NCBI GenBank assembly: GCA_948470475.1
Contig: OX419337.1
Span: 29,462,872-29,526,871, forward strand
Direction of reading: 5' to 3'
Source: Galaxea fascicularis
Lineage: Eukaryota > Cnidaria > Anthozoa > Scleractinia > Euphylliidae
Length of the DNA stretch: 64,000 nucleotides
Each line of letters opens with the position of its first letter. Positions within the stretch are counted from its first letter, which is position 1. The translations under genes and the position numbers were made by a program. Below are positions 2,156 to 31,451 of the stretch, in pieces. The notes below the pieces were generated by a model, which was given only the letters and a program-made list of their open reading frames with translations, searched no databases and was not told the origin of the DNA.

Positions 2156-2609
2156 GGTCTCTATTATCTGTGTTAAGGACGGAGGGGTAAGGGGTAAGGA
2201 GATTTTCAGCTTGCATGATTTATGTTTTTCGCCCATTCATTGTTTAGCAAGACTTTCTTTTTTCCAGGTACATGAATTTTTTGTTTGCCTTCTTCTTTGC
2301 ACTCATTTTATCTTGTCCGTTTTCCTTCCATGATTTTTCTTTCAGTTTTCCTCCACCCCTCCTTTTCCTCACTTTTCTAATGCTTCCTCCCTTAGTAAGA
2401 AAGTGTTGTAATAATCTCACCTCAAACTTAACTATTCTTCCTCGGAAGCGAAAAAAGTCTGTGGTTCGGCTACCAACTTACCACAACCTTAAATGTGACA
2501 TAAATTCACTTTGAGGCTTTATGTAAAATTCTAGAGGGATGTTCCCGTTTGAAACTGCCCTCTTTCACGTCTCTTGCCGTTTTAATAGCCAAGTGAGGAA
2601 ATTGATAAT

Positions 2610-2668
2610 TAATGAATATTGATTGATGATTGATTGATTGATTGATTGACTGATTGATTGATTGATTT
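2610..2668. repeat. (GATT)n microsatellite
   Basis: Tandem gattgatt units with occasional gact variants. The same tract lies at the matching place in copy B (21276-21352) and is longer there, as expected for slippage after duplication. Confidence 0.85.
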
Positions 2669-2820
2669 TAATTGATTGCCAGGCTGTATGCCCTTGCTTA
2701 AAACAAGGGATTCTTTTTTTTCATTTCCATTTCCTAAACAAATTGCTTTTCCATCTTCTGCCAAAATCATTCCGAACAAAGACAACCCACTTAAAAGCTG
2801 CCCCTAAAGTAGGGTTGAAA

Positions 2821-2883
2821 TTAATCTCATACCCAGATCTGACTGCAGATGTGAAAACCGTGAGAGATCTGGGTACGAGATTA
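2821..2883. repeat. Short palindromic element
   Basis: The ends AATCTCATACCCAGATCT and AGATCTGGGTACGAGATT are near-perfect inverted repeats about 27 bases apart. It sits against the 3' end of receptor A and supplies its last stop codon if the final exon is not spliced further. Copy B has the same element at about 21501-21563. Confidence 0.7.
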
Positions 2884-5800
2884 GGTTGGTTTCTTACCTT
2901 TGTTGTCTAATTGGAAGGTCTGCTTTCTCTGCCTGGTGAAAAGTTCCCATATTAAGCCTAAAACGACCAAACCAACCAGAATCCCTGACAAGATATATAG
3001 ACCCATCCAAAAGAAGGGCTCCTCTGAGCGAAAGAGGTATAGACGCGTGCCCCATGATTCTTTTCTTTCCTTGCGCTGTAGGAAAACAAAGGTTTTAGCG
3101 CACTCTTCAATCGAGTGTCGTAAAGTCAAAACCAAGGCAATTACTCTTTCCAATCATAACAGACGCAAACAATGCAATGAGCCAACCAGAATTCGAAGCA
3201 ATTACAAGTGACCCACGTAAAGCGCGGGAAACTGCGCACGTGCAAGTCACGATTGGTTTTGGTTTTGCTTCTCATTGGTCGAGAAAATGGCGTAAGTTTT
3301 GCTGGCCAATCAGTGAGCGAAGAAATGCAAAACCAAAGCAAACGCAATTACCATTGGACATTCAAATTAAAACCGCCCGTCTGTTGTTGATGTCGTCTAT
3401 AAAATGTTTGTAAGGAGTGGGGAGTTGTTGGCAACGGTTAAGCAAAGTCTGTTCCTAGTGTGATCCGTTGGTCAGTCAGTAGTGTTAGTACCGTAGGTGA
3501 CACATTCAGCGATTCTGTGGAATGTTATTGTTCATGTCACCATTTCTCGTCGCTCGTTTGTGTTGAGTCAGTCAGTTCCCCTCCGCAGAAGGCTGTGACC
3601 ATTTAAGAGAAAGGCTCCCTGGGCTCGATTCCCGGTCTCGGCGTCCTGTGCGGGTTGTGTTGGTTGTTGGTTCTCGTCCTTGCTCCGAGAGGCTTTTTTC
3701 CAGGTTCCCCTGTTATTCCCCCTCCTCAAAACTCAACACTTCCAAATTCCAATTCCATCTGTATCGTAGCGGCAGTTAGCCTAGCGTGTGCAAAGTACAC
3801 TGACACTCAAATAGAGTGATTTATTGATTTATCATTACTGAGAGGCATTTACCTGGTGAAAAGGTTGTGCGTAGCTGAATGCTATTGGGTAGATATCATT
3901 GCCAAAAAATTGTTGGCTTTTTGATTTGATGTATTCATATAATGGGTTTTCAGTGAGATTCCGCATGAAAAATCCGATGTTGAAAGGAAATTGCAGAATT
4001 TTCACTTGCTCGAATCTTTTTGTCTTATCATTGTGGTTCCAGACTCGGTTGATCCTGTAAGACGCAGTGTACATATCCAACAATATACCCTCCACTTCGT
4101 CTTTGGCAAGTGCATTGGTGAGTGCGTCCAGATCTTCATACACTAGAAACAATGAAAATGTCATGAGTTCACTTTGACAAGAAGAAGATACCCATTCTGC
4201 TTGTATTGTTGGTGGGCACATCACGCTAGTAAAAAATAAAACCACCAACTATGAATCAAGTCAAGAAAATTAAATATTGTAGAAGAGTTTTAAGTTTGAA
4301 GAACGTGTCAAAGTCTCAGGGCTGTGTGACATCCCGTATGCGAGTTATTCGGTAAAATGTTCCTCCCAAAATTATAGAGTTTGGTATGGAGAAGCCAAGT
4401 TAGTGTACTTCAGCTGTGCACCAAAATGGCGGTCGGAAACGAGTGGCAACAACTAAAGTTTACTTTCCTCTCTTTGCTAAGTTTGCAAACATTTACATGC
4501 ACACTTCCTCTTATTATTTCGGCTCTTAAGCCATCTTATGTCACGCGCTGCGAAAAAATCTGAAATTTAAACTGTTCTATTTTCAAAACAAAGCAGGCTA
4601 GCGAGCTGAAAACAGGCAAGCAGGTATATTTCCAATGTGTTAATAAAGGTAAAAACCAAACAAAGCTTGTCTTCTTAGTAATAGCGGAGCTCCGCGCGCG
4701 CCGAAGGCGCGCGCGCGCGGAGCACCATTGCTAAGAAAATATGGTAACCCATCCATCCGAGAAATTTTGGTTATGACGTCATCGTACGACCGACCAACCG
4801 ACCGTCCGACCGACCGACCGACCGACCGACCGACCGTACGTACGTCCACCCCATCATGTAAGCCAAAGTCAAATGTGATACTCCAGTTAACCCTTTCGTG
4901 TGCGAGCTCGCATGTAGGCACGCTTCCATATGGACTGTTTTTGGAAAGATCAGTTGCCCATACACGCAGTTCTCAACCCGCGTTTCTGTGGCGGGAAACT
5001 GCATAGCCAAATTTTGAAGACAGTTTTAAAACAAAGTCAGTTTTGTCTATTCGTTGGCGGAATATCAGTGACAAACAGCGGGAGAAAGAACATGAAAGGG
5101 CACGGGTACATAGGCAGAGTATCAGTGACAAACAGCGGGAGAAAAAGCACGAGCAAACTGGCTGAATTGTATTGTCGAGCAACGGGAGAAAGAATAAGAA
5201 AGGGCTCAAGTAAACAGGCTGAATCGTGATGGGAGCAACGGGAGAAAGAACAACAAAAAGCTCGAGAAAAGAGACGAAATTATAGTGAGGAACAGCGAAA
5301 AAGAGAGTGTCTCTTGTCAAGCTGTAAAAACATTACCAATTCAAGTGTCAGGAAATTTCAGCTTTTCCCCGTGTTTGCCTGCATAAGCTTGCACGAAGAG
5401 AAAAGATCGCCGGTGTGGTCTGGCAAGGTTTCAGTAATTATGCACTGTCTTCGGACCTTGCTGTGTATTAAACTGGACGGTTTTGCCGCTAAAATCCTTA
5501 ATTGAACAAGCTTCCTTGACAGGCATGAGAAGTAATAAGACTTACTTTTGTGCTAAATGACCGCTTCTGCTTAAGCTCTGCGTTCGGAGTGATTGTTGAC
5601 TGACTTAAACTGTGCGCAGGTTAGTACTCCTGTTTTGTCTTTTATATGGACATTTATGCCAAGAAAATTGAATAGCGATTTGTCTCGGTTTGTTACTTGT
5701 CTTATTTTTTTCCGATTTGTACGAGAAACGTCGAATAGACATTCGCATCGGTTTCTTTTTTCTTACGTTTTGTTGTTTTCACGCTTCCATCTCAAATTGG

Positions 5801-8800
5801 TTTGGACTCTTGTTTTTTCCAAATGTTTTCTACCCAATATTTCATCTTGGATCCTAAAACGTTTCGTTTGAGGGCACAAAATTTGTTGAAGAAAAGCCAA
5901 GCGAAGTCCGGACGGTTTATAACCTCGGCGCCGTTTGGTAAGTTTGACATTTGGAAAACTCTCGCCGAAAGAACAACAACTCCATGCCAAAAGTAAACGC
6001 GATTTTTAACAGTTGCAGCATTGGAAATGCCGGCAATATATTGTCCCTCGCCGCAATTCTTAGCAAAGCAATGATTTTGTGTGAAATGACGGCTATTATG
6101 TCAGCTCTGCGTTCGGAGTGATTATTGACTAACCTAAACTGTCCGCATCCGTAGGTTTAGTATTCCTGTTTTGTCTTTTATACGGAGACTTATGTCAAGA
6201 ACACTCGGACTAGCGATTTGCCTAGGTTGCTCACGAGTTATGTTTGTTGCTTGTCTTATTTTTCCAAGAAACGCCAAAACGCCGAAGAAACATTCGTATC
6301 GTTTTTTGTTTTCTTACGTTTTGTTGTTTTCACGCTTTTATCTTAAATATGGTTTGGACTAAAAAATGCTCGTGTTTTTTCCAAATGTTTTTTATTCAAT
6401 ATTTCATTAGTGGATCCTAAAAGTCTTCGTTTTCCCTGCTGTCGCTCATTTTTGGGCACAAAATTGGTTGAAGAAAAGCCAAACGAAGTTCGGACGGTTT
6501 AAATCCTCGGCTCCGCTTTGTTAGGAACAAGAGCCGGATTGGCATTTGGAAAACTCTCGCAAAGAGCGACAACTCTTGCCAGAAGTAAACACGATTTTTA
6601 ACAGCTTTAGCAGTCGAAATGCCAGCAATATGTTGTCCTTCACAGCAATTCTCGTTGTAAGTTAAAAAATCGTAGACTTAATGGGCTAATTGCAGTAAAA
6701 ACTTCGTCTTTAATTCAATGTTTATTGACAAATGTTTTTCTGAAACCGATTTGTTTGTCTGTTGTCATTGCCAATCAGATGTTATCATTAACAATGATGT
6801 AAAAAATAATACCGCCCACGACTCGTAGTCAACGTTTGTAGTTTGCAATATTTGTAGTTGATCGAAGTCAAGAATAAAACCATTCTCAACCATTTGTAGT
6901 TGATCACCTGAGTTGATTCATGGCTTATTGTGCCGCAGCCACTTTTCAGAACGAAAAGTTAAGTTAAAGTCTTTTTCGGTTAATGTTTTTTGGTGCTATT
7001 GTACAAAGGACACAGACGGCACCTTTCTATCGTCTTTATAGCTCACAAAAAATGACGCCATAAAATAGTCAAAACAAGGCGAACAAAGTACTTAACTTCT
7101 TTTTTGGGTGGTGTCGAAGAGTACCCACTTTGGGGTTTTACCATTTTGTTTTGTTGTGGAATATTTCGGTTTGTTGAGGTTAAAATGTCAACGATACATG
7201 TTAGAAAATTTGTGACTTAGCCAAAGCACAAAACCGGTTGTGATGTTGGATTTAAAAGTGAGACACTGGGACTGTTAATCGATAGTTTAGAGATTTACAC
7301 CATTTGTATTGAAATGTAATCGGATGTAATTAAACTGTGATGAAGTAAAATCGTTTATGCTCTGGTTATGTAGTCCCTTGATCCAACGTGGCAAAGGCCG
7401 ATAATAAATCGAAAATGTACGTTAGCACATGTTTGAATGGTGGCTGTGGCTCTGCAGCAAAACAGTAAAAACTATAATCACAATGCAGAAGTCCTTACTA
7501 GAGTCCTGGCTCGAGTCCTGGCATTGATTTTATTTTATCGGTAAATGCCATACAATAAAAAAAGAACTGTGGAGCTCCGCTTTTAGGTTTGCCTAAACAT
7601 ATATATTATATGTTTTTATGACGTCACGAGCCCACCAAGAATTGCTCTCGCAGCATCCTATTTGAGGCGTTCGAATCTCGAGAATTTTGCACTTTTGCCT
7701 CGTTATCATGCAACCTCATTCCTAGTGTTGTATTGTAGGTTGCGTTAGTAATTATTGTGTTGTAAGCAGTGTAAAGTACCGTATTGTAAGTAGTGTGAGC
7801 ACTGTATTGCAAGTAGTCCAAGTATCTTATTGTCAGTGGTGTAAATACCGTAATGTAAGAGACGTAAGAAATTGTAAGTAGCATTTTCGTATCTGCTTTT
7901 CTCAAAGGTTTGGGCGTGGCTTGGGCCAGTCTCGGTCGAAGCATCACATAAGTAAGAAAGGCAATACTGAGAATGCTTAAGATTTAATTGGAAGAGATTC
8001 GAAAGGAAGAGGTAGAAAAATATGAAGTTATTTGAAAGGAGTAGATTCGTCCATAGTGCAGCGAAGTTAAGCTGAAGTTAACCATGGCAGTTACCTTCCG
8101 TCACATTTTGTAAATGCAAAGAAGGTAACAATGGCGAATCCAGGGTCTCCCCCTCGCCCCCGACTTAGTTTTAGATCAAAGCCGAGAGCCGCACGGCCGA
8201 GGCGCGAAAAACCGCGAAAGTGCCAAAACGTTTTGAGAGAGTCCTCACTGGGACGTATTATACGCGAAAAGACAAACATTATGCTTTGGTAAAATGCCAA
8301 AATCGCGCTCTTACTTGTAAGAATCGCTTCATGCTGCAGCCCCTCTTTGTAGGCTTGACTGTCCGCCAGAACTCCAAGCTGTTTAAATGAAATATATATG
8401 GTATATGAGGAAGCGGTTATAGTACCCCCATTAGTTCCATTTATTAAATAAGCAGTAGTAACGGCGCAATAGTAAATCATGCTCACTTGACATTGCACTA
8501 ACTTTCTCAACTCAACTCCTTGATGCCTTCTTGATACCATATTAGCAGTTACAATAGCCATTCCAGTGGCGGATCTAACAACTGCTGAAGTTGCTTATGA
8601 TTGTATCTTTACGATATTTAAACTTGCTGCAATTAACAGCCATTTACATCATTTTTCATGCGTTATTTTGCAAAGCAATCTGTGCAATGACTCCGAAACA
8701 TCCCTTTCCCCTAAACGGAGACAAAGTCAACAAAGGCTTTTCCATAACGATCGTCCGTGCTAAGACTTCAAATTGGTCTAAAAGGGCTGGCCTTCTCAAT

Positions 8801-11800
8801 ACTATAACCAACCTCGTTGTTCATAACGTCCGTGTAATCGGTGAGAGTTCCAAACGTCAAGGATGTTGTCATGATTGCACTCAGGTACGCCATGACGATG
8901 ATTCCGACAAAAATCCACACAACTCCAACCACGCGTGCTATCAAGAATTTAGGCGTCTTATCACCATACCTAACCAGAACAAGAACATCATCAGACTCAG
9001 GAATGGACAGCAGTTTTAATTTTGACGATCCATCTATCATGTACACCTATGACTCAACATTGAACATTGCATTTCATCAACTTACCCAACGGTTGTCATA
9101 GAAACGAATGCCCACCAGATTCCTTCCAGTGATCCACGACAGAATCCTGGGGGGAATTCCTCAGCATTTGAATTGGAATCCTGCAGTGAATGTATCCGTT
9201 TTAAGAGGATTTCCTTTATCCGAAAAACGTTTGAGATTTTAACGGGTTTTTCCTGTATGATCATTTGTTTTGAGTGCGCTTGTAACAAGAAAGTTGCGTA
9301 GTTTTTGTCGCTTTTGAATAAAATTGCAGGAGTTGCGAAAAGATTCTACCAGTCTCGGGACCGCTGCTTCCACTATTTTCATTCAACACGACAAAAACGA
9401 AGACAACTTTCTGGTTAGAGGAGCTCTAAAACAAAGGATCAACCCGGCACCTTTAAATGCGAGCAACCGCGATGCAAAACTTGTCTCTTGTCATTCAAAA
9501 CATTGATAAAATATCGGGACCTGGGCGATCTTTTAAGGTCACTGATCGTTTCGCGTGAACCTGTACAAAAAATTGTCTATCTTTTATAAACCGTTATGTT
9601 TTGTGTACGTGAACACTACGTTGAGAACTCGACGGATTGTCCAACTGCATGCAGTCTATCATGACTTCATAACTCTTTGAAGAGTGCACACCGCTTGGGT
9701 TTTAAGCGGCCTTCACACGACAAACTAAAATTGATAAACTCGTGTTTGCAAACTCGAACGAGTTGGCTACTGGGGAACTCATGCTTTCACACGTCAAACA
9801 AGCGTCAAATCACAACACACGCCATTTTGCAAAATCGCCGCCGTACTCCGCTTGTGCTTTGCTTTTATTGTATGCTTATCGCCGTATAATTGAGAGAAGA
9901 AAGCGTTGGAAAAATATAAATCTGTGAACAAAGCCCTACCTAAGCAGAAATCCACCCCTTGCATTGGCGCGAACGATACGCTCATCCAAGAGTTTTGCGG
10001 CGCAGAAGATGCCGCAGGTTTCAAAAATTATTATCTTTATACGAAGGGGACGAAATGTTCCACAAAGCCAGACAATTGTGTACTTCATCAATGAATTGAA
10101 ATGTCGCTTCATCGTGTCGCTCGTCTGCCATTTTGTGAAGTGTCACGCAAATCACGTGAATAGAGCACGAATTTTGATTGGTTTAAAGTCAATAACTCAC
10201 GTTTCCAATCGTTCACACGTCAAATACGAGTTTGGCAACACGAAAAAGTTGGTGAAAAAGTTGGCGAGATTAGAGACAAGTTTTATTTGTCGCCAACAGT
10301 TTGCCAACATGCCTGACAACTGTTGTTGTGTCTTTCACACACGCCAACTTGGATTTGCCAACACGAGTTTTCCAGTTCTAGTTTGTCGTTTGAAAGCCGC
10401 TTTAGGCCTGTTTTTTTATTATGGTCACGTGGACCACCAACGATAGTTGAGTTGAAAAATTGAAAACCTTTTCAATGATTTGAAAGGAATCATTAAATAA
10501 GTAGAATTACTCTACTTTTTTATTCGAGGGAATAGTACATACACGGAGGGAAGTAGACTTTGTGTTTAATTATCGAAAGTCGGTCAGTGGTAACATAGTT
10601 ACTAATGTAAATTATCTAACATATTGAGGGTGATCAGCTGCCTCGTGTAAATAGCCGTAATTACACAGGGCGAATTTATTTAGATAAATATCAAGGTCCC
10701 CTGGGGAGATCGGCGTTTTCCTATTTACACAGCCGGAGAAATTTTAAAAATGAAATGACCGAGAACAAAGGACAATCAGCTTGAACCCTTGTATTATTTG
10801 TTAACTTTCCTGGGTAAAATTACCAATCAGAAGCCGAATTTCGAAAGCTGCAGATGCAGGGAGCGGTTGCAAGCTGACCAAATTTGCATGGAGTGTGAAA
10901 TAGCTAGTTGACCTAAACTGTGGTGTCTTTCTGCGCAATGATACGAGTGTTAAATTCCAACAGAGGGATGAGGTTTACAGAACATTTTGCTTTATTTTAT
11001 CTGCAACTGTCCTTTTTTATTAACACAATTTTTTTTGCCAAAGGTTAGAAATTCTGAGTCTGAGGAGGAAAGGAATGGCTCATTCTATAATCGAACAACC
11101 ATTTGGACCTTTTTGTCGTACCCTGGAAATTTAAGTCGTTCTTCAACACCGCTCAGTTTTCTTTTTCGGCTGATAAATGAAAACGTTGTATGTGAAGGAG
11201 CGAAGCGTCGCCAGAACTGACAGCAAAAGAAGTCGAGAGGTTAGGGTTTTAACAGCTCTTACGTCTTCCATTGTTATCGTGTCTCTTTCACGAATATCCC
11301 TGAGTCGGAGAATTTTACTCACCACTTGAATTCTCTAGGTGCGTCCAACCTACATCTAAATTACCCGAGTTAAATAAAAACTGAGTCCCAGCTATTTTAC
11401 CAAGGGAATATTATACTAAAGAAACATCTTTGCGCAAGGTGGCGTAACCATGGCTAATGAAATAGAAAAACGCCGAAAGGTAATTTTTATCATTTGATAT
11501 TTATAACTACTCAATAGTGTGTTTATTTCTGAGAAACAGTAGGGAACAAAGAAGAAAAATAATTACAGAATACACAACTGGTCAGTTTCCAATAAGTTGA
11601 CTAGTATTGAGCATAAACAAAAGGTTGTCGGGCATCAGTTTTCCGGCTTCTTCACAAGGCAATTAGCCAGTTTTATGGTAATTTGTCTATGACAATCATG
11701 TATATTACCATTTTGACAGTCATTACATTGTTTTCATTTCACTGTTGTCGGTTTTTCTCTCTTATGTTTACTCTTCTGTCGTTCATTACTGGCCTCGGAC

Positions 11801-13067
11801 GTGTCTTCTTTCGCGATTCAGACAAATTAAGCGATTTTATGTTAATAGGCCTTTTGGCGTCGTAAAGGTGGCGAGTTTCATTTACAATATAATTGTGCGC
11901 AAGCTGTCAGGCGTTTTTAAAGATCTATCAAGATATTTGCGCCTTGTTTTTTGAAAGTGATTGGTGTCATAAGTATTAAATTAGGTCGTTTTTTTTTTCT
12001 GATTCATGGTCTTTATTTAGCTCAGTCTTATCGGGGCAATGTGTGAAAAAAGCGACAGTGGGGACTAATTTCCGGAACAAGTCTTTAGATGCCCATGTTG
12101 TTGTTGAAAATTCAAAACTTTACTAAGTGCGAGCTTTATTTTGGCTTTGATCCCCGAAAATGAATAAAACTGAGATTCGTCTTACAGGTGGATAAAATTT
12201 CGTCAAGGAGAAGGGAAAGAAACGCTGAAGGCTTTTTAAACAGACCAGCTGGTGAAATAAACCTGGCGCAGCTTGTTCAGAATCTTTGCACTTATCCAGC
12301 TTTATTTCAGTTCTTGCAATTTTATCCAGTCTCGTAATTTAAATTGAAGATTTCTTATTCCTTGTTCGCTGATCGTTTTTTTGTGCTTCTCAGTTATACA
12401 GTTCGTCTTTTTTAAAACGTTAGCCCAGGTAACAGAAAAAATGAGTAATACTCACCAACGCCCAAATTAGAATTCCAAATATTGCACTTAAGAGCACTGC
12501 CAACACCAGGACGGTCCAAGTCTGAAGGAACTCCTTGAAGACATTCCATTTTGCCTTTTGCTCGAGCTGTACTTTATCTTTTACCAGTGCAATCCCGGGA
12601 GACCGTATTAATTCTCGGAAACGCAGTCTTCTATAAAGATCATTCTTGATATGTGAGTAAAGAATGGGGAAGACGATGTCAAAATCTTTACTCATGCACT
12701 CGTTCAGTTCTGAAATATATTTGGCTTCGTAAGTGTAGTTCAGCCATGATCTGGAGCTTCCGTTGCATAACTGGTTGAATAAATCATTGATTGCGTCGTG
12801 AAAAATTCCTGTCATATTTCCTGTACTCTGGTTCATGATGTATGGAGGACTTTGAAGCCAACAGACCGTGAGGTTTCCAAAGTTACACGTCTGCGTAACT
12901 CCAGTCGGTTTGCTTTGAGTAGAAGATTTTTGCTGAACATCCGTTGTCGGGTTAATGGACATGTTAGCAGAATAACTTGTGTTGTAAATCAACGAGGGTG
13001 TTGACGATGACCGAGCGTCGATTTGAACCAAGATCCAAACAAAATAAGCGCCAAGCTGTCCTCGCAT
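2881..13067 (-). CDS. Glutamate receptor-like channel with potassium-channel pore, copy A
   Basis: Six exons: 13067-12456, 9180-9086, 8969-8813, 8378-8315, 4142-3853, 3075-2881. They total 1413 bases, or 470 residues plus stop, and all phases agree. Order of parts: signal peptide (MRGQLGAYFVWILV, start at 13067); ligand-binding lobe S1 with NLTVCWLQSPPYIM; first membrane helix (WTVLVLAVLLSAIFGILIWAL); pore loop LEGIWWAFVSMTTVG joined by splicing to YGDKTPKF; second helix (VVGVVWIFVGIIVMAYLSAI) followed by MTTSLTFGTL; lobe S2 (LGVLADSQAYKEGL, then ILLDMYTASYRI); last helix (GLYILSGILVGLVVLGLIW). There is no amino-terminal domain. This layout is that of an ionotropic glutamate receptor, but the pore carries the potassium-channel signature TTVGYGD, as in bacterial GluR0 and rotifer AvGluR1. 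I infer a ligand-gated potassium channel in the plasma membrane. The exon 3 donor GAG|GTTGGT is weak but preserves frame. The exon 6 donor AAAG|GTAAGA could lead to a further exon. The ligand is unknown. Confidence 0.85.
3130..3390 (+). repeat. CCAAT-rich dispersed repeat, copy 1
   Basis: A roughly 230-base repeat with several CCAAT/ATTGG boxes, a GTAAAGCGCGGGAAA core and a GGCCAATCA box. Related copies lie at 17835-18055, 21825-22080, 61258-61500 (inverted) and 63615-63855. This one lies in the intron before the last receptor exon. Confidence 0.75.
3600..3800 (+). repeat. tRNA-derived SINE fragment (5' truncated)
   Basis: GGGCTCGATTCCCGG resembles a Pol III B box. It is followed by a SINE-like body (GTTGGTTCTCGTCCTTGCTCC) and a tail CTCCTCAAAACTCAACAC. 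The A-box half is missing. It is duplicated with the block at about 22263-22455. Confidence 0.6.
4684..4723. repeat. GC-rich palindrome
   Basis: GGAGCTCCGCGCGCGCC-GAA-GGCGCGCGCGCGCGGAGC can fold into a very stable hairpin of about 16 pairs. The rest of the segment is AT-rich. Confidence 0.8.
4785..4840. repeat. (CGAC)n microsatellite
   Basis: Tandem cgac/cgtc units. On either strand they create false open frames rich in VGRS or RPTD. Confidence 0.85.
5053..5300 (+). repeat. Degenerate 55-58-base tandem repeats, former coding sequence
   Basis: Five units share AACGGGAGAAAGAA or AACAGCGGGAGAAA. One frame reads SDKQREKEHERARVHRQSIS before a stop, then fragments such as RRNYSEEQRKRE in later units. 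This looks like a decayed charged coiled-coil repeat exon. I do not recognise its parent gene. Confidence 0.5.
5557..6660. repeat. Tandem duplication of a ~530-base unit
   Basis: The first unit begins near GCTCTGCGTTCGGAGTGATT at 5575; the second repeats it near 6102. Both then contain GTTTAGTATTCCTGTTTTG-like and TTGTTGTTTTCACGC stretches in order, and end near a CGCAATTCT/CAGCAATTCT motif. No protein is evident. Confidence 0.7.
9702..10404. mobile_element. Nonautonomous terminal-inverted-repeat element
   Basis: The left end TTAAGCGGCCTTCACACGAC and the right end, read in reverse, TAAAGCGGCTTTCAAACGAC are matching inverted ends, with subterminal GTTGGC and CACACG motifs inside. It has no transposase. 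Copy B keeps only the left part (from about 25317) because its right part is replaced by the kinase-bearing segment. It lies in the long intron between receptor exons 1 and 2. Confidence 0.7.
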
Positions 13068-13789
13068 TTTCACGTTCGAATGTGTTTTACTGGAAAAGAC
13101 TGGGTAAACGCTATTACTAAGGCTACAGTTTTGCTTTCTTTCGGCTTTAACACGAGCCGAATTCCTCCAAAAGAAAGTATATGCATAATAGACTTTCATG
13201 ACACTGTTTTGCGGACAATTGATGTCAACAATTTCTTATTGGTCGGGTGATTTTGACTCAGCTCAGACCTCCATACAATTAATATTTACAGTGCACCGAA
13301 TACGGTTTTGCAGCTGTTTAGGGAGCCAAATGTCATCCCACTACCGCGCTAAATAAAGCAATCGTATTTGCCGCGCCACTGGCATTAACTACAATTGTAT
13401 GCCGGATGCCAATTCCCTTCCCTTCAGCGCCACGTGCTGTATTTCGAGTCTATGCAGGGACTAACTCTTATTCATAACTTCTTTAAATGCGCAGGACGTT
13501 AATACTTCAAGATTTTCATTAAACGTGTAATTACTGATACGTCAAAACAGAATTTTATGAATTCAAACCGAGAAAGGAGCAACAACCTGCTGACGAACAT
13601 TTGGTATGCTTCCGAACAGTCTTCAAAGTTCTTGCATACCTTTAAATAAATATACATAGATAATGAGCGTAAGCGTCCTGTGTGACCTTAAAAGCTTAAC
13701 TAACCCTTTCTTTCGGCTTATTTTGCGGTACTCAGTAATCGATAATCATAAAGTACGGTTTCAGTTTCCTCGCGATGTTTCTAAAGTAC

Positions 13790-14225
13790 AGTTGACTCCC
13801 GATAACTCGAACCGTCAAAGGAACACAAAAGGTTGGAGTAGCGGGAGATCGAGTTATCGGGAGATGGAAGAAATGACCGGAGATTATACAATGTTTCGTT
13901 TAAATGCATTTGATTTCTATTCAAACAGCGTCTTTTGTCAGGTTTAATGCGAAAAACGAGTAACTAAGAACACCACTATGGATTACCGCAGTACCTTACA
14001 GGATATATGCTATTTAAATTTGAAGCAATTCAGTTAATGATAAATTGAACTCTTGGGGTATGTTTTGACTCATCATTACACTTTGGAAAAGTGATTCGAG
14101 TTCTCCAGGATAAAATTATAGAGAATATGACCCGACCAGAAAAATGAATAACTTCAATTCGAGTTCGTGGAAGGTTCGAGTTATCTAGTTCGATTTACTG
14201 ATTTATCTAGGTCAATTTACTGTGG
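13790..14225. mobile_element. MITE-like element (GACTCCCGATAACTCGAAC family)
   Basis: The start ACAGTTGACTCCCGATAACT and the end GGTTCGAGTTATCTAGTTCG...TTTACTGTG are inverted, with internal GAGTTATCGGGAGAT. Copy B has it at 28785-29215. It has no coding capacity. It lies upstream of receptor A. Confidence 0.6.
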
Positions 14226-14333
14226 GTAAAATATTATGGTAAACGTACTGCCCGTTTTAAGCGTCGCATTTCATGTGTGCCGATTTGACTGGGAAGGAAA
14301 TGAATGTATAGTTCGACGTTTAAAACCATTTCA

Positions 14334-14443
14334 GAATACCCGGCCACTTCTGACCACTATTGTCTTCTTGTGGCGGCATCGTTTAAAGAACGAGACAGAT
14401 AACAATACACACTATTCACATGCAAATAAGTGGCCGGGTATTC
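14334..14443. mobile_element. 110-base MITE, copy A only
   Basis: The 16-base inverted ends GAATACCCGGCCACTT and AAGTGGCCGGGTATTC are perfect, with CAG on both sides as a possible target duplication. The matching region of copy B has no such element but carries other sequence, so the empty site cannot be read cleanly. Confidence 0.75.
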
Positions 14444-16467
14444 AGAAGTTTAGCTTTCACTTGAAATCAAGCGCATAAATTATGATAACAAGTGTAAGCA
14501 TATTTCACTGGCTTGTACCACGGGAGCCTATCACCTGCTTGCAGCCAATGAACGCGAGACAGTATGCATGAAACTCGATATGCCAATAAGGGCAATTTGT
14601 TTGGATTAGAGTTTCAACAAATTTCATCTTTTAACTTTTGGTCTGAAAGCTCGCTCAGATCCCCGGGGCATTTTGTAACAGAATTAAAAAAACTTGTTTC
14701 TCGTGAATTATTGAGTTAAATAAGCACTTGGGAATTTTTAAGAGCCCTCGAGAAGCCGAGAAGCACTCGCCTAAGGCTTGTGCTTCTCAAGGAGCTTCTC
14801 TCGTGTTTTTAACGTGCTTGTTTAACTCAACAATGCCCTCGACGCGGATTTTAATTTTTTTTTTTAACAGTGCACGTGTGTGATGCAGGGAACGTGTTTT
14901 AAAGGAGATATAACAAACTCGATTCGACCAATCACAGCGCCCCAGTAACTCTTTGAACAATTTAATGATGTCTTATCTGTCAATACTTACTTCCGATGAG
15001 CCAAACTGGTTTGGCTTTAGCGAACGTGATTCTAAAAACCACAAAATTATTTGGAAGGGAATCACTTTCTGTTGGGTGTGATCGTTGCATAATCATGATG
15101 GTAAGCGATTACCAACCAACCGGACGAGATGGCACGTATCATCACATTTATGTCTGCTGCATACGCAAGTTACTGACAAATGTATGGGAAATTGAAAACC
15201 CACAGCGCAAATTCTAATACAGGTAGGACCCTCAAATTTTTTTAGTAAAATCCTTTGGTTAGCGATTAAAATCTACAGTTAATAGATTATTTCTTCTTGT
15301 TAATTATCTCATTTAAAATACATTTAAAAATAAGGAATAGAAGGAAAATTCGAAAATATATTTTAGGTAAATATTTTAAGGCAATAGTTCGCAAGGGAGA
15401 CATTTTAAGGCAATTTGAAAATTTGCAAGAATTTATCTAAAACCAACTGGAGTGTGACTGGATGGTAAGAGTTGTAATTCGCCATACAAATTGTTGTGAT
15501 TTCAAACCGCCATAAAACATTTCCCCTTTTGCGATAGAAGCCTGAAAACATACTTGTGTACTTGTCTTCGTGTTTGTGAAAAGTTTATCTCATAAGTGAC
15601 TGTTGCAGCTATTTGAATCTGGACTGAGGAATAGAGACAGGCCCTTAGCCAACATTTGAATGGGGGAGTGCGTCGGACCGCCATCGGCCGACTACTCGAG
15701 CGCCCCCGGAGCGAGTTGGTAGGGGTGGCTCTTTTTAGAGCCATACAAAACGGCTCTTGCCGGAGCCACAACATAAGGAATAGGGAGGCTTGGAAGGCGC
15801 AGGCCCATATGCTGTTATAGAGCTCTCAAGTTGATTTGTTGCCCAAGAGGGAGATTTTTGATTGTGTAGCCGTCTATTGTCACGCTAAAGGCTAAAGGCG
15901 TCACCTTTCTGGGCGGAGAGGGAGGGAGGGGGGGGCCATGCTCCCTTTCTTCTGAGCGGAATTTCCACTGTTAAAAAGCGTTTGACGCCGTTACAAAGAA
16001 GAAATGGAGTGAATTACTTCCAGAATGATGCTTCATTAGGTAGTTACTTAACTTCCGCAGCAATGTCTACCTCAAAATGAACTGTTTAAGTCAAAAAACT
16101 TAAATGCATGAGAGAAAATAGTTTCAGCGTGAGAGCGAAAGATTGCATTCGTTTGCGTGAGTCTGACCCTTAATGCGCGAGACCAAGAGCTGGCGAGACT
16201 TGAGATTGAAATCTGCACTCATTGCCGTAGATCACAACTTTAAATGTACATTCACATTTAAGTATCACTTGGATGTGAATGTACATTTAGCCTGCGTGGC
16301 AAGGCGTTCATTTGTCCACATTGTGGCCGCGCGGAATTAATTGGGGCGAGAGAAAAAATGGAGGACGGGGGAGGGGTAGGGGATGGAAAGAACGCTTACA
16401 AGCAAAAATTTGGTTTTATCAACGGTGCTGATCATGTAAATTGGCCTGGGTTCTGGGATTCTAAAAA

Positions 16468-16497
16468 CTGACGTTTCGAGCGTTAACCCTTCGTCAG
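16468..16497 (-). ncRNA. Hammerhead-ribozyme-like core (Penelope-type), copy A
   Basis: On the minus strand: CTGACGA-AGGGTTAACGCTC-GAAAC-GTCAG. This fits the hammerhead core CUGANGA...GAAA with a three-pair stem II. Such minimal hammerheads are known from Penelope-like retroelement ends. Stems I and III are not convincing by eye. Confidence 0.4.
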
Positions 16498-16700
16498 AGC
16501 AAACCCCACGATTCTGAACGCGTCTCCTGATTGGTGTAGCCTACATGGCGGGCGTAAAAGGTTTGGCGTGGCTACATTGATTGATAGGTACATTCAAAGC
16601 TGTGGTCCCTAAAGCTGCACTATATTTAACGTCATTTCTTTAGCAGTGCTCCCTCTCAATTAATGACGTTGTCGACGTAGAATTAGCTTAAATACTTATT

Positions 16701-16772
16701 ACCAGCCTAGTTCCTAGGCGTTCCCTGACAATTGTGTTTGACCGAGCCAAGAACGCCTGGGTACTAGGCTGA
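16701..16772. repeat. Inverted-repeat element CAGCCTAGTTCCTAGGCGTTC
   Basis: CAGCCTAGTTCCTAGGCGTTC at the left is mirrored by GAACGCCTGGGTACTAGGCTG at the right. Copy B has it at about 31661-31732, roughly 240 bases upstream of the TMBIM6 start codon. Confidence 0.7.
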
Positions 16773-16859
16773 CTTATGACATCACCTCCCATGCGGCAAT
16801 CACCCGATTCGTTACGAATTATTGAAGAAGCATTTTTCGAAGTAAATGGTTTCGATGCA

Positions 16860-17002
16860 CGTCATCGCCATTTTGTTTCGTCCTGCTTTCCTTGTTGTTT
16901 ATCTCAAGGTTTGTAGCGTAGTTATCTACGCGTTCAGCAGGTAATTCGAAGACGGAACTAGAGCAAGAGAAAGAAGACATCCCAAGGCTGCCAATATGGA
17001 CA
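16860..17002 (+). pseudogene. TMBIM6: Orphan TMBIM6 5' UTR and start codon
   Basis: The sequence up to CCAATATGGAC matches the region ending at the TMBIM6 start codon in copy B (31970). After the second codon the homology stops, and the reading ends 13 codons later. So copy A carries the TMBIM6 upstream region and ATG without the gene. It may still start transcription. Confidence 0.75.
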
Positions 17003-17300: not shown

Positions 17301-17309
17301 ACTTTGCAC

Positions 17310-18816: not shown

Positions 18817-19236
18817 AAGAACAGACCACAACAGCAGAAAATACGTCCCCTACTCTTTGCGATCAGTGTGTGGACTTTTTAACGTCCCACAAAGTTATCA
18901 TGGACAAGGGTTGTGAGACGGGACCTACCTTACTATTCCTATTCGTATTTCTATTGTTCCTATTGCTGTTGTTGTTATTGTTATTCTTATCCACACTCAG
19001 TCGACCAGACTTCTTGGGTGGGTATTGTTGAAGCTATAAATTCAAGTCCTATCCATGATTAGCCAGAAATGTCAAATTCTACTAATACAGTGTTACCCCA
19101 GGAGCTTCCTATTTTTGGGTACCATTCGAAAAATATTTACATTGATGCCGTCCGAACCTGTGTACCACGGGTGACATCTTAACCGATCGTTAGTGTGTTT
19201 TACCACATTTTGATGATTGGCTTTTCATAATCAAAC

Positions 19237-19433
19237 CTTTTGAGCCGCACTGTTCATTAAAAGTGTAGCTCCTTCACTTTTCTGTTCACTCCAGTAATCA
19301 TTTAGTTTGCCATAAGCATCTTTTAGCTCTAAAATCTTTCCCATGCGCTTTTCAACCTCACAAATATTGTCCATCACCCTCCTCAAATCGCGTCTTGTTA
19401 ACGGTACATCCATGTCGACACCCTTCCCTCCGC
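19237..19433 (-). CDS. Candidate exon of unknown gene, helical
   Basis: An acceptor TTTTTTCAG|GCGGAGG and a donor CTCAAAAG|GTTTGA frame a 197-base open segment. It reads through MDVPLTRRDLRRVMDNICEV and later ILELKDAYGKLNDYW, both predicted helical and charged. No family was recognised and no partner exon was found. It might be a real exon of an otherwise unseen gene or a captured fragment. Confidence 0.35.
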
Positions 19434-20800: not shown

Positions 20801-21269
20801 CTGTGTTAAGGACAGACAAGTAGAAAAGTGATAAGGGGAAGGGGTAAGGAGATTTTCAGCTTGCATGATTTATTTTTTCCACCCGTCCATTATTTGTGCA
20901 AGACTTTCTTTTTTGCAGGTACATGAATTTTTTCTTTGTCTTCTTCTTTGCACTCATTTTATCTTGTCCATTTTCCTTCCATGATTTTTCTTTCATTTTC
21001 CTCTACCCAGGCTCCTTTTCCTCTTTTTTCTACTGCTTCCTCCCTTAGTAACAAAGTCTTGCAATAATCTCACCTCAAACTTAACCATTCTTCCTCGGAA
21101 GCGAAAAAAGTCTGTGGTTCGGCTACCGACTTATCACAACCTTAAATGTGACAGAAATCCACTTTGAGGTTTTATGTAAAATTCTAGAGGGATGTTTCTC
21201 GTTTGACACTGCCCTCTTTTACGTCTCTTGCTGTTTTAATAACCAAGTGAAGAAATTGATAATTAATTA

Positions 21270-21275
<6 letters not shown>

Positions 21276-21306
<31 letters not shown>

Positions 21307-21352
21307 AATTGATTGACTGATTGATTGACTGATTGATTGATTGATTGATTTT
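21276..21352. repeat. (GATT)n microsatellite, copy B
   Basis: Counterpart of the tract at 2610-2668. Confidence 0.85.
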
Positions 21353-21738
21353 AATTGATTAACAGGCTGTATGCCCTAGCTTAAAACAGGGGATTCTTTT
21401 TATTCATTTTCCATTTCCTAGACAAATTGCTTTTCCATCTTCTGCCAAAATCATCCCAAACAAAGACAACCCACTTAAAAGCTGCCCCTAAAGTAGGGTT
21501 GAGATTAATCTCATACCCAGATCTCACTGCAGATGTGAAAACCGTGGGAGATCTGGGTACGAGATTAGGTTGGTATCTTACCTTTGTTGTCTAATTGGAA
21601 GGTCTGCTTTCCCTGCCTAGTGAAAAGTGCCCATACTAAGCCTAAAACGACCAAACCAGCCAGAATCCCTGACAAGATATATAGACCCATCTGAAAGAAG
21701 CGCTCGTCTGAGCGAAAGAGGTATAGACGCGTGCTCGA

Positions 21739-24700
21739 TTATTCTTTTCTTTCCTTGCCCTGTAGGAAAATAAATGTTTTAGCGCCCTCTTCAATCGAGT
21801 GTCGTAAAGTCAAAACCAAGGCAATTACTCTAACCAATCATAACAGACGCAAACAATGCAATGAGCCAACCAGAATTCAAAGCAATTACATGTGACCCAC
21901 GTAAAGCGCGGGAAACTGCGCACGTGCAAGTCACGTTGGTTTTGGTTTTGCTTCTCATTGGTCGAGAAAATGGCGTGAATTTTGCTGGCCAATCAGTGAG
22001 CGAAGAAATGCAAAACCAAAGCAAACGCAATTACCATTGGACATTCAAATTAAAACCGCCCGTCTGTTGTTGATGTCGTCTATAAAATGTTTGTAAGGAG
22101 TGGGGAGTTGTTGGCAATGGTTCAGCAGAGTCTGTTTCCTGTGTAATCCGTTGGTCAGTAGTGGTCAGTACCGTAGGTGATTCATTCAGAGATTCTGTGG
22201 GATGTTATTGTTCATGTCACCGTTTCTCGTCGCTCGTTTGTGTTGAGTCAGTCAGTTCACCTCCGCAGAAGGCTGTGACCATTTAAGAGAAAGGCTCCCT
22301 GGGCTCGATTCTCGGTCTCGGCGTCCTGTGCGGGTTGTGTTCGTTGTTGGTTCTCGTCCTTGCCCCGTAAGGCCTTTTCCAGGTTCCCCTGTTATTCCCT
22401 CTCCTCAAAACTCAACACTTCCAAATTCCAATTCCATCTGTATCGTATCGGCAGTTAGCCTAGCGTCTGCAAAGTACACTGACACTCAAATAGAGTGATT
22501 TATTGATTTATCATTAAAGGCATTTACCTGGCGAATACGTTGTACGTAGTTGAATGCCATTAGGTAGATATCCTTGCCAAAAAATTGTTTGCCTTTTGAT
22601 TTGATCCATTTACTTAAAAATGGGTTTCCACAGACGTTCCGCATGAAAACTCCGATGGAGAAAGGAAAGTGCAGAATTCTCACTTGCTCGAACCTTTTTG
22701 TCTTATCATTGTGGTTCCAGACTTGGTTGATCCTGTAAGAGGCAGTGTACATATCCAACAATATACCCTCCACTTCGTTTTTGGCAAGTGCATTGGTGAG
22801 TGCGTCCAGATCTTCATACACTAGAAACAATGAAAAAGTCATGAGTGCACTTTGACAAGAAGAAGATACCCATTCTGCTTGTATTGTTGGTGGGCACATC
22901 ACGCTAGTAAAAAATAAAACCACCAACTATGAATCAAGTCAAGAAAATTAAATATTGTGGAAGAGTTTTAAGTTTGAAGAACGCGTCAAAGTCTCAGGGC
23001 TGTGCAACATCCCGTATGCGAGTTATTCGGTAAAATGTTCCTCCCAAAATTACAGAGTTCGGTATGGAGAAGCCAAGTTAGTGTACTTCAGCTGTGCACC
23101 AACATGGTGGTCGGAAACGAGTGGCAACAACTAAAGTTTACTTTCCTCTCTTTGCTAAGTTTGCAAACATTTACATGCACACTTCCTCTTATTATTTCGG
23201 CTCTTAAGCCATCTTATGTCACGCGCTGCATCCTATTTGAGGCGTTCGAATCTCGAGAATTTTGCACTTTTGCCTCGTTATCATGCAACCTCATTTCCAG
23301 TGTTGTATTGTAGGCTGCGTTAGTAATTATTGTGTTGTAAGCAGTGTAAAGTACCGTATTGTAAGTAGTGTGACCACCGTATTGCAAGTAGTCCAAGTAT
23401 ATTATTGTCAGTGGTGTAACAACCGTAATGTAAGAGACGTAAGAAATTGTAAGTAGCATTTTCTTATCTGCCTTTCTCAAAGGTTTGGGCGTGGCTTGGG
23501 GCCAGTCTCGATCGAAGCATCACATAATTAATAAAGGCAATTCTGAGAATCAGTACTGTAGCAGCTCTCGTAAGGCTCTAAATTCAATTGGAACTGATTC
23601 GAAAGGAAGAGGTAAAAAAAATAGGAAAGGAGTAGAGTCGTCCATAGTGCAGCGAAGTTAAGCTGAAGTTAACCACGGCAGTCACCTTCCGTCAAATTTT
23701 GTAAATGCAAAGAAGGTAACATTGGCGAATCCAGGGTCTCCCCCTCCGCCCCCGACTTAGTTTTGGATCAAAGCCGAGACCCGCAGGGCCGAGCCGCGAA
23801 AAACCGCGAAAGCGCCAAAACGTTTTGAGAGCGTCCTTTTTTTCTCTAGGTCTGGATCCGTCACTGGGACGTATTATACGCGAAAAGACAAACATGTGCT
23901 TTGGTAAAATGCCAAAATCGCGCTCTTACTTGTAAGAATCGCTCCATGCTCCAGCCCCTTTTTGTAAGCTTCACTGTCCGCCAGAACTCCAAGCTGTTTA
24001 AACGAAATATATACGGTATATGAGGAAGCAGTTATAGTAACCCATTAGTTCCATTTATTAAATAAGCTGTAGTAACCGCGCAATAGTAAATCATGCTCAC
24101 TTGACCTTGCACTAACTAACTTTCTCAACTCAACTCCTTGATGCCGTCTTGATACCATAGTAGCAGTTACAATAGCCATTCCAGTGGCGGATCTAGCAAC
24201 TGCTGAAGTTGCTTATGATTGTATCTTTACGATATTTAAACTTACTGCAATTAACGGCCATTTACATCATTTTCCATGCGTTATTTTGCAAAGCAATCTG
24301 TGCAATGACTCCGAAACATCATTTTCCGCTAAACGGAGACAAAGTCATCAAAGGCTTTTCCATAACGATCGTCCGTGCTAAGACTTCAAATTGGTCTAAA
24401 AGGGCTGGCCTTCTCAATACTATCACCAACCTCTTTGTTTGTAACGTCTGCGTGATCGGTGAGAGTTCCAAACGTCAAGGATGTTGTCATAATTGCACTC
24501 AGGTACGCCATGACGATGATTCCGACAAAAATCCACACGACTCCAACCACGCGTGCTATCAAGAATTTAGGCGTCTTATCACCATACCTAACGGGAACAA
24601 GAACATCATCAGACTCAGGAATGGACAGCAGTTTTAATTTTGACGATCCATCTATCATGTACACCTATGACTCAACATTGAACATTGCATTTCATCAACT

Positions 24701-27700
24701 TACCCAACGGTTGTCATAGAAACGAATGCCCACCAGATTCCTTCCAGTGATCCACGACAGAATCCTGGGGGGAATTCCTCAGCATTTGAATTGGAATACT
24801 GCAGTGAATGTATCCGTTTTAAGAGGATTTCCTTTATCCGAAGAACGTTTGAGATTTAAACGGGTTTTTCTTGTATAATCATTTGTTTTGAGTGCGCTTG
24901 TAACAAGAAAGTTGCGTAGTTTTTGTCGCGTTTGAATAAAATTGCAGGAGTTGCGAAAAGATTCTACCAGTCTCGAGACCGCTGCTTCCACTATTTTCAT
25001 TCAACACGACAAAAACGAAGACAACTTTCTGGTTAGAGGAGCTCTAAAACAAAGGATCAACCCGGCACCTTTAAATGCGAGCAACCGCGATGCAAAACTT
25101 GTCTCTTGTCATTCAAAACATTGATAAATCATCGGGACCTGGGCGATCTTTTAAGGTCACCGATCGTTTCGCGTGAACCTGTACAAAAAAATGTCTATTT
25201 ATAAACCGTTATGTTTTGTGTACGTGAACACTACGTTGAGAACTCGACGGATTGTCCAACTGCATGCAGTCTATCATGACTTCATAATTCTTTGAAGAGT
25301 GCACACCGCTTGGGTTTTAAGCGGCCATCACACGACAAACTAAAGTTGATATACTCGTGTTTGCAAACTCGAACGAGTTGGCTACTGGGGAACTCATGCT
25401 TTCACACGTCAAACACGCGCCAAATCACAACACACGCCAATTTGCAAAATCGCCGCCGTACTCCGCTTGTGCTTTGCTTTTATTGTACGCTTATCACCGT
25501 AGAATTGAGAGAAGAAAGCGTTGGAAAAATATAAATCTGTGAACAAATCCCTACCTAAGCAGAAATCCACCCCTTGCATTGGCGCGAACGATGGGTATTA
25601 AATGATAGGCAACATCATGGTTTGGATCCACCCTTGTGGATCTCATTAGTTGCCGGGAATAGCTTGAGAAAGAGAGTTGCTCTTTAGGCAACGTAATCGC
25701 CTTTGTGACCGAAGTCGAAGCACGAATACTCCATCATGATGGCATATGGCTCGTGACAAAACCTCAGAAATCCGGAAATATTTCTGTGGCCTTTGACACT
25801 ATGGAGGATACCTGCCTCCTTTTCGAAGCGTCTATTTGAGTCGGCGGATTCACCTTTCAACTTCTTTATGCAAATATGGCGCTGCACTTCTCCAAATTTA
25901 AAATCCGCCAAATAGACGACCCAAATGTCCCGCTTCCAAGCTCTTCTTTGATTTCTATTGAGTTCCATGAGAACTCTGGAAACTCAAATGCACGTCGTCG
26001 TTTTTTAGTCAGAGATGGAAGCTTAAAACAAGCCGCCATCTCTTCCTCGCGCAATTCCCTGACTTTCCAGCACAAAATTAAAATATGCAAAATTATTTCA
26101 GTCAAAGGTCTACAATACATTTTTAAACTTCCGGGCTTTTGATAGCCTGGTCGCTTTTTTGTCACGTACACTTTTGATTGTCCTATTCTTCCCGTAAAAC
26201 GTAAGGAATCGTTCTGGACCCGCTCCTGTATATTAAGATGTTTATTATTTAACTGAAATAAAAAATAAAAATAAAAAAATAAACGCGCCGAGTACATTGT
26301 TGAGTTAAACATAAGCACGCGGGAAGTTTTTTTGAACACGTGAGAAGTGCCGAGAGAGGCACGAGCCGTAAGCGATTGTTCCTACACATTTCGAAATGTT
26401 AATGTTACGCAACAATGGACAAAAACAAGCTTTTTTTCAGTAAATATTTATATGTCAAGCGACATCTGAGTAAAATTAAATTGGGACAGACAAAAAATTA
26501 AAAAAATCAACAGTCTAACAATTCCATTTTCTTTCTACAAATCCACGTTTTACAAATCAATGTTTTACAAATCCATGTTTTACAAATCCACCTTTTACAA
26601 ATCCATATTTTACAAATCCAGTCCATGTTTTACAAATCCAATCCAGTCAATATTTTACAATATGCCTCATTACTGGCCTTGGCGTGTCTTCTTTCGCGAT
26701 TCAGACAAATTAAGCGATTTACAATATAATTTTGCGCAAGCTGTCAGACGTTTTTAAAGATCTATCAAGACATTTGCGCCTTGTTTTTTGAAAGTGATTG
26801 GTGTCATAAGTATTAAATTAGGTAGTTTTTTTTTTTCTCATTCATGGTCTTTATTTAGCTCAATCTTATCGGGGCTATGTGTGAAAAAAGCGACAGTGGG
26901 GACTAATTTCCGGAACAAGTCTTTAGATGCCCATAGACCTCTTTCATAATGGCGGCCAAATAAAATATTCTTTTGTTTTAATGCTGATAAGCCTTTCTAA
27001 CCTCGCTGCTATGTGCAAAATACAAAAGAATGTTTGCGCTAAAATGAGGCCAGTAAGTCTAATTAACATAGATACAAAAGAACAATATTATCGGCGGCCA
27101 TTATGAAAGTGGTCTATGTTGTTATTGAAAATTCAAAACTTTACTAAGTGCGAGCTTTAGTTTGGCTTTGACCCCCGAAAATGAATAAAACTGAGATTCG
27201 TCTTACAGGCGGATAAAATTTCGTCAAGAAGAAGGGAAAGAAACGCTGAAGGCTTTTTAAACAGACCAACTGGTGAAATAGACCTGGCGCAGCTTGTTCA
27301 GAATATTTGCACTTATCCAGCGTTATTTCAGTTCTTGCAACTTTATCCAGTCTCGTAATTTAAATTGAAGTTTTCTTATTGCTTGTTCGCTGCTCGTTTT
27401 TTTGTGTTTCTCAGTTGTACAGTTCGTCTTTTTTAAAACGTTAGCCCAGGTAAAAGAAAAAATGAGTAATACTCACCAACGCCCAAATTAGAATTCCAAA
27501 TATTGCACTTAAGAGCACTGCCAGCACCAGGACGGTCCAAGTCTGAAGGAACTCCTTGAGGACATTCCATTTTGCCGCTTGCTCGAGCTGTGCTTCATCT
27601 TTTACCAGTGCAATCCCGGGAGACCGTATTAATTCTTGGAAACACGGATCTTTCTTGATATGTGAGAAAAGAATGGGGAAGACGATGTCAACATCTTTAC

Positions 27701-28076
27701 TCATGCACTCGTTCAGTTCTGAAATATTTTTGGCTTCGTAAGTGTAGTTCAGCCATGATCTGGAGCTTCCGGTGCATAACTGGTTGAATAAATCATTGAT
27801 TGCGTCGTGAAAAATTCCTGTCATATTCCCTGTACTCTGGTTCATGATGTATGGAGGACTTTGAAGCCAACAGACCGTGAGGTTTCCAAAGTTACACGTC
27901 TGCGTAACTCCAGTCGGTTTGCTTTGAGTAGAAGATTTTTGCTGAGCACTTGGTGTCGGGTTAATGGACATGTTAGCAGAATAACTTGTGTTGTAAATCA
28001 ACGAGGGTGTTGACGATGACCGAGCGTCGATTTGAACAAAGATCCAAACGAAATAAGCGCCAAGCTGTCCTCGCAT
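21739..28076 (-). CDS. Glutamate receptor-like channel with potassium-channel pore, copy B (truncated before last helix)
   Basis: Exons: 28076-27477, 24798-24704, 24587-24431, 23993-23930, 22820-22528, 21759-21739. They total 1230 bases, or 409 residues plus stop, with the same splice sites and phases as copy A. The pore exon is nearly unchanged (WWAFVSMTTVG then YGDKTPKF) and the second helix is identical. Differences: a four-residue shortening in S1 (SHIKKDPCFQELI against SHIKNDLYRRLRFRELI in A), scattered changes late in S2, and a stop at 21741-21739 where copy A has TCA. The stop removes the last membrane helix, although the DNA for it survives downstream. Bacterial GluR0 works without that helix, so function cannot be ruled out. 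A recent pseudogene is equally possible. Confidence 0.75.
21825..22080 (+). repeat. CCAAT-rich dispersed repeat, copy 3
   Basis: Duplicate of the copy at 3130-3390, carried along with the block. Confidence 0.8.
22260..22455 (+). repeat. tRNA-derived SINE fragment, copy B
   Basis: Duplicate of the fragment at 3600-3800. Confidence 0.6.
25684..26039 (-). pseudogene. Protein kinase N-lobe fragment with one frameshift
   Basis: From an ATG at 26039 the frame reads MAACFKLPSLTKKRRR, then SWNSIEIKEELGSGTFGS, the glycine-rich loop of a protein kinase. One base is missing at about 25917-25921; in the next frame the sequence continues VYLADFKFGEVQ, HICIKKLKGESAD (the ATP-binding lysine in IKK), RRFEKEAGILHSVKGH (helix C glutamate) and YAIMMEYSCFDF (hinge). 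It then stops. The catalytic loop and the C-lobe are missing. It lies in the intron between receptor B exons 1 and 2 and is absent from copy A. Confidence 0.7.
26530..26662 (+). repeat. Short tandem repeat (ACAAATCCATGTTTT)n
   Basis: About eight units of roughly 15 bases, each TTTTACAAATCCA with small changes. Copy A lacks it. Confidence 0.85.
26935..27115. mobile_element. 181-base MITE, copy B only, with readable empty site
   Basis: Ends AGACCTCTTTCATAATGG and CCATTATGAAAGTGGTCT are inverted repeats. AT flanks both sides. Copy A at 12092-12100 reads CCCATGTTG, which is exactly the empty site. Confidence 0.9.
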
Positions 28077-31421: not shown

Positions 31422-31451
31422 CTGACGTTTCGAGCGTTAACCCTTCATCAG
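31422..31451 (-). ncRNA. Hammerhead-ribozyme-like core (Penelope-type), copy B
   Basis: Minus strand: CTGATGA-AGGGTTAACGCTC-GAAAC-GTCAG, so the core here is the canonical CUGAUGA. Otherwise identical to the motif at 16468-16497. Confidence 0.45.

Follow-up and report, generated by a model that had tools for sequence, protein, structure and literature searches.

The question raised by this locus is whether a coral gene can hold a potassium selectivity filter inside a receptor of the ionotropic glutamate receptor (iGluR) type, and what such a receptor would sense. The window analysed here is a stretch of 64,000 nucleotides of the Galaxea fascicularis genome (contig OX419337.1, positions 29462872-29526871), which carries two copies of the gene on its minus strand. 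Copy 1 probably encodes a subunit of a ligand-gated K+ channel of the iGluR superfamily, belonging to a cnidarian family which joins lobes like those of the bacterial receptor GluR0, a K+ filter and the helix M4; the probability of this reading is put at roughly 0.7. The exons of copy 1 were placed as follows, with the evidence in brackets (HMM, hidden Markov model).

12456..13067, minus strand: exon 1, signal peptide, lobe S1 and M1 (splice model; HMM match, E 2e-29)
9086..9180, minus strand: exon 2, pore helix and TTVG of the filter (splice model; HMM match)
8813..8969, minus strand: exon 3, YGDKTP of the filter and M3 (splice model; HMM match)
8315..8378, minus strand: exon 4, start of lobe S2 (splice model and relative alignment; no HMM match of its own)
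3853..4142, minus strand: exon 5, remainder of lobe S2 including the acid of LLD (splice model; HMM match)
2898..3075, minus strand: exon 6, M4 helix (splice model; HMM match)

The splice from 9180-9086 to 8969-8813 reads GIWWAFVSMTTVG before the junction and YGDKTPKFLIARVV after it, exactly as the initial annotation had joined it, and the phase-2 intron interrupts the codon for the first Gly of GYG. Each of the five introns in copy 1 is GT-AG and preserves the frame, and the six exons make 465 codons. Reading through the donor site of exon 6 gives the 470-residue product which had been taken for the whole protein; this was rejected, as exon 7 continues the relatives as well as the array copies A and B described below, and judging from them the copy 1 protein is longer than 470 residues and a seventh exon is expected. 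A partial exon 7 of copy 1 adjoins the window edge, just outside (L029 2869-2783, where 5,000 of 8,000 bases are N).

For control, an HMM was made from 71 distant family members, the window gene's own clade being excluded, and was run on the 2184 open reading frames (ORFs) of at least 20 residues in the window at a threshold of E 10. Only ten matches were obtained, which are five exons each of copies 1 and 2, in order; exon 4 (64 bases) gave no match in either copy. The matches of copy 1 cover profile positions 25-176, 177-208, 209-262, 283-353 and 360-428, with E values of 4e-16 and 7e-16 for the two filter exons and 2e-8 and 6e-8 for exons 5 and 6. The same HMM gave zero matches in 20 shuffled windows, for which two-base units were permuted inside 300-base blocks, so that the composition was kept only roughly. 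A chance motif was rejected on this difference between ordered exon matches in the window and none in the shuffled windows. The Acropora millepora protein P0002, which is uninterrupted, is 48% identical to the copy 1 product over 99% of the length. The idea that pore and lobes are separate genes was also rejected, since relatives carry both in uninterrupted proteins.

From the sequence and the predicted model of P0002, the protein has a signal peptide, an S1/S2 clamshell split by M1-pore-M3, the K+ filter, M4 and a helical tail. The two-lobed, binding-protein-like domain split by the pore was recovered by a profile made from the lobes only and in the predicted fold of P0002, and the order M1-P-M3 was found in the sequence and in the same model. 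GluR0 is the best match of the lobes both by sequence (lobes-only profile) and by fold (P0002 model). M4 follows S2 as exon 6 of copy 1 and as helix 442-482 of the model. The signal peptide and the lobes together suggest an inverted membrane orientation of the pore. The M3 gating motif of iGluRs is of the SYTANLAAF type; the M3 consensus of the family aligns with YTASLTSILT of the plant receptor GLR3.4, and the window copy reads AYLSAIMTTSLTF. There is no amino-terminal domain, exon 1 running from the signal peptide through a short linker to S1, and this domain is not defining for the iGluR superfamily because GluR0 is also described as being without one in the accessible portion of PMC11479355.

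A database search with the spliced copy 1 protein gave 101 relatives, whose named species are cnidarian except for the bacterium Galbibacter. Starting from the Nematostella member, a search yielded 280 relatives; among the 120 listed the named species are all cnidarian and many proteins are without a species name, and the named genera and groups among them are Hydra, Hydractinia, Rhopilema, octocorals, anemones and corals. We take the named genera to be cnidarian, and their anthozoan or medusozoan assignment is likewise our assumption. A profile-type search gave 143 relatives, the best 120 of which were listed; this search and that with 280 relatives scored only candidates sharing most words, so the family need not be confined to Cnidaria. 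The Nematostella protein is 52% identical to that of Hydra and 78% to that of Actinostola. The databases label the relatives as uncharacterised or as potassium channel proteins. Full-length members on short contigs (P0005 with 533 residues, longest contig 1,719 bases) would most simply be spliced transcripts. The relatives, the lobes-only profile and the fold of P0002 thus support the earlier proposal of iGluR-type lobes and M4 around a filter of the voltage-gated (Kv) type in a cnidarian family.

Residue counts and the tree were based on 158 members, namely 155 database proteins of at least 430 residues, window copy 1 and array copies A and B; the shorter proteins and P0009, P0061, P0073, P0078 and P0128-P0137 were dropped. 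The filter reads TVGYGD in 156 of the 158 members, TIGYGD in one and TVGFGD in one, so the TVGYG signature of K+ channels is present in 156/158. The tree holds 163 sequences, these members together with four bacterial proteins as root and P0127. Anthozoans and medusozoans both occur in a clade of 42 (support 0.98) and in a clade of 24 which includes CUB-Ig proteins (0.95), and the window gene falls in an 11-member clade (1.00) where the named species are Acropora, Montipora and Porites. The deep branches are weak, with support down to 0.14.

Some members carry further modules. CUB domains, mostly with Ig domains, stand ahead of the receptor in P0153-P0156, P0158-P0163, P0172, P0173, P0177, P0190 and others; the CUB-bearing clade spans anthozoans and medusozoans, including Hydra, and one Acropora member is named Cubilin. 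EGF repeats or a fibronectin III domain replace the amino-terminal domain in P0022, P0027 and P0194. P0127, of 1008 residues, has EF-hand domains, a lobe-like region and the TVGYGD filter, with P aligned at the conserved acid position; it may be a K+-filter receptor of a protist.

Nine exon-2 and nine exon-3 copies lie within 29.15-29.49 Mb of the window's contig. By these matches at least nine gene copies make up a 0.33-Mb array, two of them in the window; the two copies given by the initial annotation are both there, the array is larger, and copy 2 is broken before M4. Array copies A and B have seven exons each with the same splice sites and run from ATG to stop (532 and 527 residues). Of the nine exon 5 copies in the array, one contains a stop and another is shortened; of exon 6 there are eight, seven of them stop-free, and a ninth, weak match lies elsewhere in the genome. 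Such tandem duplication suggests a sensory or other diversifying use.

In the whole 416.6-Mb assembly there are 55 exon-2-type matches, 34 of which have an exon-3-type partner no more than 4 kb away on the same strand (nine of these pairs in the array and 25 elsewhere). The filter-exon search scored 150 of 159 candidates, and the pair count used 97 of 113 rows, two of the 97 being in neither class; the 16 rows dropped by hand crossed the filter and were mostly long open frames, by appearance ordinary K+ channels. Because of the 34 pairs, dozens of genes in the Galaxea genome appear to have a filter split by an intron, as deduced from match ends outside the array. The intron within the K+ filter may also be a family marker and a chance for exon shuffling.

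The exons of copy 2 and the duplicated blocks are given below.

27477..28076, minus strand: copy 2 exon 1 (splice model; HMM match)
24704..24798, minus strand: copy 2 exon 2 (splice model; HMM match)
24431..24587, minus strand: copy 2 exon 3 (splice model; HMM match)
23930..23993, minus strand: copy 2 exon 4 (splice model)
22528..22820, minus strand: copy 2 exon 5 (splice model; exon search of the array; HMM match)
21582..21759, minus strand: copy 2 exon 6, with in-frame stop before M4 (splice model; array exon-6 comparison)
19231..19433, minus strand: exon 7 behind copy 2, helical tail and stop (block alignment; exon also present in array copies A and B)
2183..17002, no strand: duplicated block with copy 1 (main aligned pieces 91-94% identical to 20834-31976)
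20834..31976, no strand: duplicated block with copy 2 (alignment to the copy 1 block)

In copy 2, too, each of the five introns is GT-AG and preserves the frame, and the in-frame stop of this copy is at the start of exon 6. The two window copies differ at 58 amino acids, of which 22 were polarised to copy 1 and 18 to copy 2, with 18 undecided. About 3.1 kb of the fourth intron of copy 1 (4551-7649) is without counterpart in copy 2 and is probably an insertion. Two minus-strand ORFs are perhaps transposon remains, one at 17109-17315 which by eye is like a piece of a P-loop helicase (ITGQAGTGKS) and one at 550-1251 which by eye is like a Myb/SANT-like DNA-binding protein.

Other explanations were weighed with this evidence. 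The protein might be a plain K+ channel which merely resembles a receptor, its lobes being vestigial; the best-scoring PDB matches of a single-sequence search are Kv channels (KCNQ3, 6.1e-8), and several relatives are named potassium channels in databases. This is highly improbable, since the lobes resemble GluR0 in sequence as well as in fold, and a comparison of 20 diverse members shows the PPY motif, the proline and the acid of LLD to be retained. A plain Kv channel was rejected on the lobes and on the lack of an S1-S4 voltage sensor, Ion_trans being aligned over profile positions 124-233 of 241 only and the P0002 model having one long membrane helix ahead of the pore helix. Several results do weigh against a receptor of the iGluR superfamily. 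In the database and Pfam check proposed by the initial annotation, the search gave the cnidarian relatives and Pfam Lig_chan gave 28.2 bits for the window protein, below the cut-off of 30.8. With a profile without bacterial rows, the 60 listed of 382 PDB matches were K+ channels and one binding protein, with no iGluR among them. The Foldseek superpositions over the whole length are loose (query TM-score 0.29-0.43, root-mean-square deviation 9.8-16.1), and the predicted fold is that of the 48%-identical relative P0002, not of the window protein. Foldseek lists animal AMPA/NMDA receptors among the P0002 matches; they are not among the 50 rows displayed by VIA-align, which says nothing against them. 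The ratios of nonsynonymous to synonymous rates (dN/dS) belong here too: between pairs of the copies compared they are 0.71-1.36 and all intervals include 1, so that neither significant constraint nor positive selection is seen among array copies, and lobe S2 of array copy A differs from window copy 1 by 28 nonsynonymous and 3 synonymous changes. Constraint on this array is thereby left unsupported and is visible at the family level only, and therefore some array copies may be decaying. That the whole Galaxea array is a decaying or non-functional expansion, with the functional receptors elsewhere in the family, would agree with these ratios near 1, with the stop of copy 2 and with the broken and shortened exon 5 copies; it is rather improbable in view of the intact seven exons of A and B, the six intact exons of window copy 1 and the exon-6 copies free of stops.

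Within the reading as a ligand-gated K+ channel, the ligand can be considered from the pocket residues. Arg485 and the acid at 705 are given ligand-contact roles in iGluRs, and the arginine is given as conserved in most metazoan iGluRs, in the available portion of PMC6307864. In the family the amine-contact position is D or E in 153/158 members and N in 5, and the carboxylate-gripping arginine is aligned in 3/156 (16/156 allowing one position of slack); it is present in 4/4 bacterial relatives. The commonest residue at the arginine position is D (50/156). Since the family conserves no basic residue at this site, the evidence favours, though it does not prove, a ligand that is not a conventionally bound amino acid. 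The conserved acid probably holds the ligand by an amine contact, the usual grip on an alpha-amino acid probably being absent, and most likely the ligand need not be glutamate; such altered residues predict an unusual ligand. Glutamate as the ligand of the glutamate-receptor-like channel proposed in the initial annotation is thus not upheld, and for copy 1 an amino-acid ligand may still apply. An ordinary amino-acid receptor (for glutamate, alanine or similar, inhibitory or feeding-related) whose pocket is rearranged, lysine or an ion taking the place of the arginine, is unlikely, yet it is given some weight because copy 1, A and B have lysine at this position and K or R is at or adjoining it in 67/156 members. 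The kept acid also agrees with it, and AvGluR1 is described as binding many amino acids with chloride ions involved (accessible portion of PMC12226733); K or R stands at the exact position in only 15/156.

If the channel reading holds, it would be a tetramer whose pore stands the other way round from that of Kv channels, a small molecule would bind in the clamshell, the lobes would close and M3 would be pulled open, and K+ leaving the cell would hyperpolarise it. GluR0 and AvGluR1 are described as K+-selective in the portions available of PMC12332018 and PMC11479355, and both stand as the precedents named in the initial annotation. For the origin, an ancestral K+-filter lineage kept in Cnidaria, as then suggested, is plausible, or the family arose separately out of a GluR0-like source. 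The lobes-only profile tempers the former, as it matches GluR0 and bacterial binding proteins, with no animal iGluR and no AvGluR1 lobe among the matches listed up to E 10. AvGluR1 is likewise described as phylogenetically similar to bacterial receptors (PMC12226733, in part), and P0127, with its EF-hands and the same filter, may be a further clue.

A larger view is offered tentatively, at somewhat less than an even chance: the family would be a large superfamily of Cnidaria's own, derived from a K+-filter iGluR and a counterpart of the protostome IRs (ionotropic receptors), which responds to ligands that are not conventionally bound amino acids and inhibits cells directly via its K+ pore, with several clades older than the anthozoan/medusozoan split, versions preceded by CUB-Ig, EGF or fibronectin modules and dozens of intron-split-filter genes in this coral. 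K+-selective iGluRs have so far been represented by GluR0 and AvGluR1, the latter treated as an oddity or evolutionary intermediate in the portions of the literature at hand, and in the full text of open-licence PMC papers no description of a cnidarian K+-filter iGluR was found. The family might provide chemical inhibition directly through potassium in animals whose use of glutamate as a transmitter is uncertain (PMC12226733, in part). Its occurrence in corals, anemones, jellyfish and Hydra points to chemical sensors, possibly inhibitory, of a kind which has drawn little notice, and its wide retention, with near-orthologues from Nematostella to Hydra, makes the loss or gain of K+ selectivity in iGluRs testable in tractable animals.

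Among known systems, the protostome IRs resemble the coral family in manner of working, with lineage-specific expansion and diverged ligand residues, and the coral family differs from them by its K+ filter. IRs are reported as not found in Cnidaria in the consulted portion of PMC2924276. The plant receptor GLR3.4 can be aligned to the family from S1 to M4, M3 included, and has no K+ filter in the alignment. AvGluR1 of the rotifer Adineta vaga, whose lobe is absent from the profile matches given above, is described as one receptor, whereas the coral protein belongs to a many-gene family. Metazoan iGluRs (AMPA, kainate, NMDA, delta, epsilon, lambda) have the overall architecture and fold in common with it, but their pores are non-selective for cations and they usually have an amino-terminal domain. 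GluR0 (Synechocystis Slr1257), the bacterial K+-selective glutamate receptor, shares the S1-pore-S2 order and the K+ filter, and its acid aligns with the amine-contact acid of the coral family; it retains in the alignment the arginine, a ligand contact there, which the family mostly lacks. GluR0 is without M4 according to the accessible portion of PMC11479355, whereas the coral protein has both M4 and a tail.
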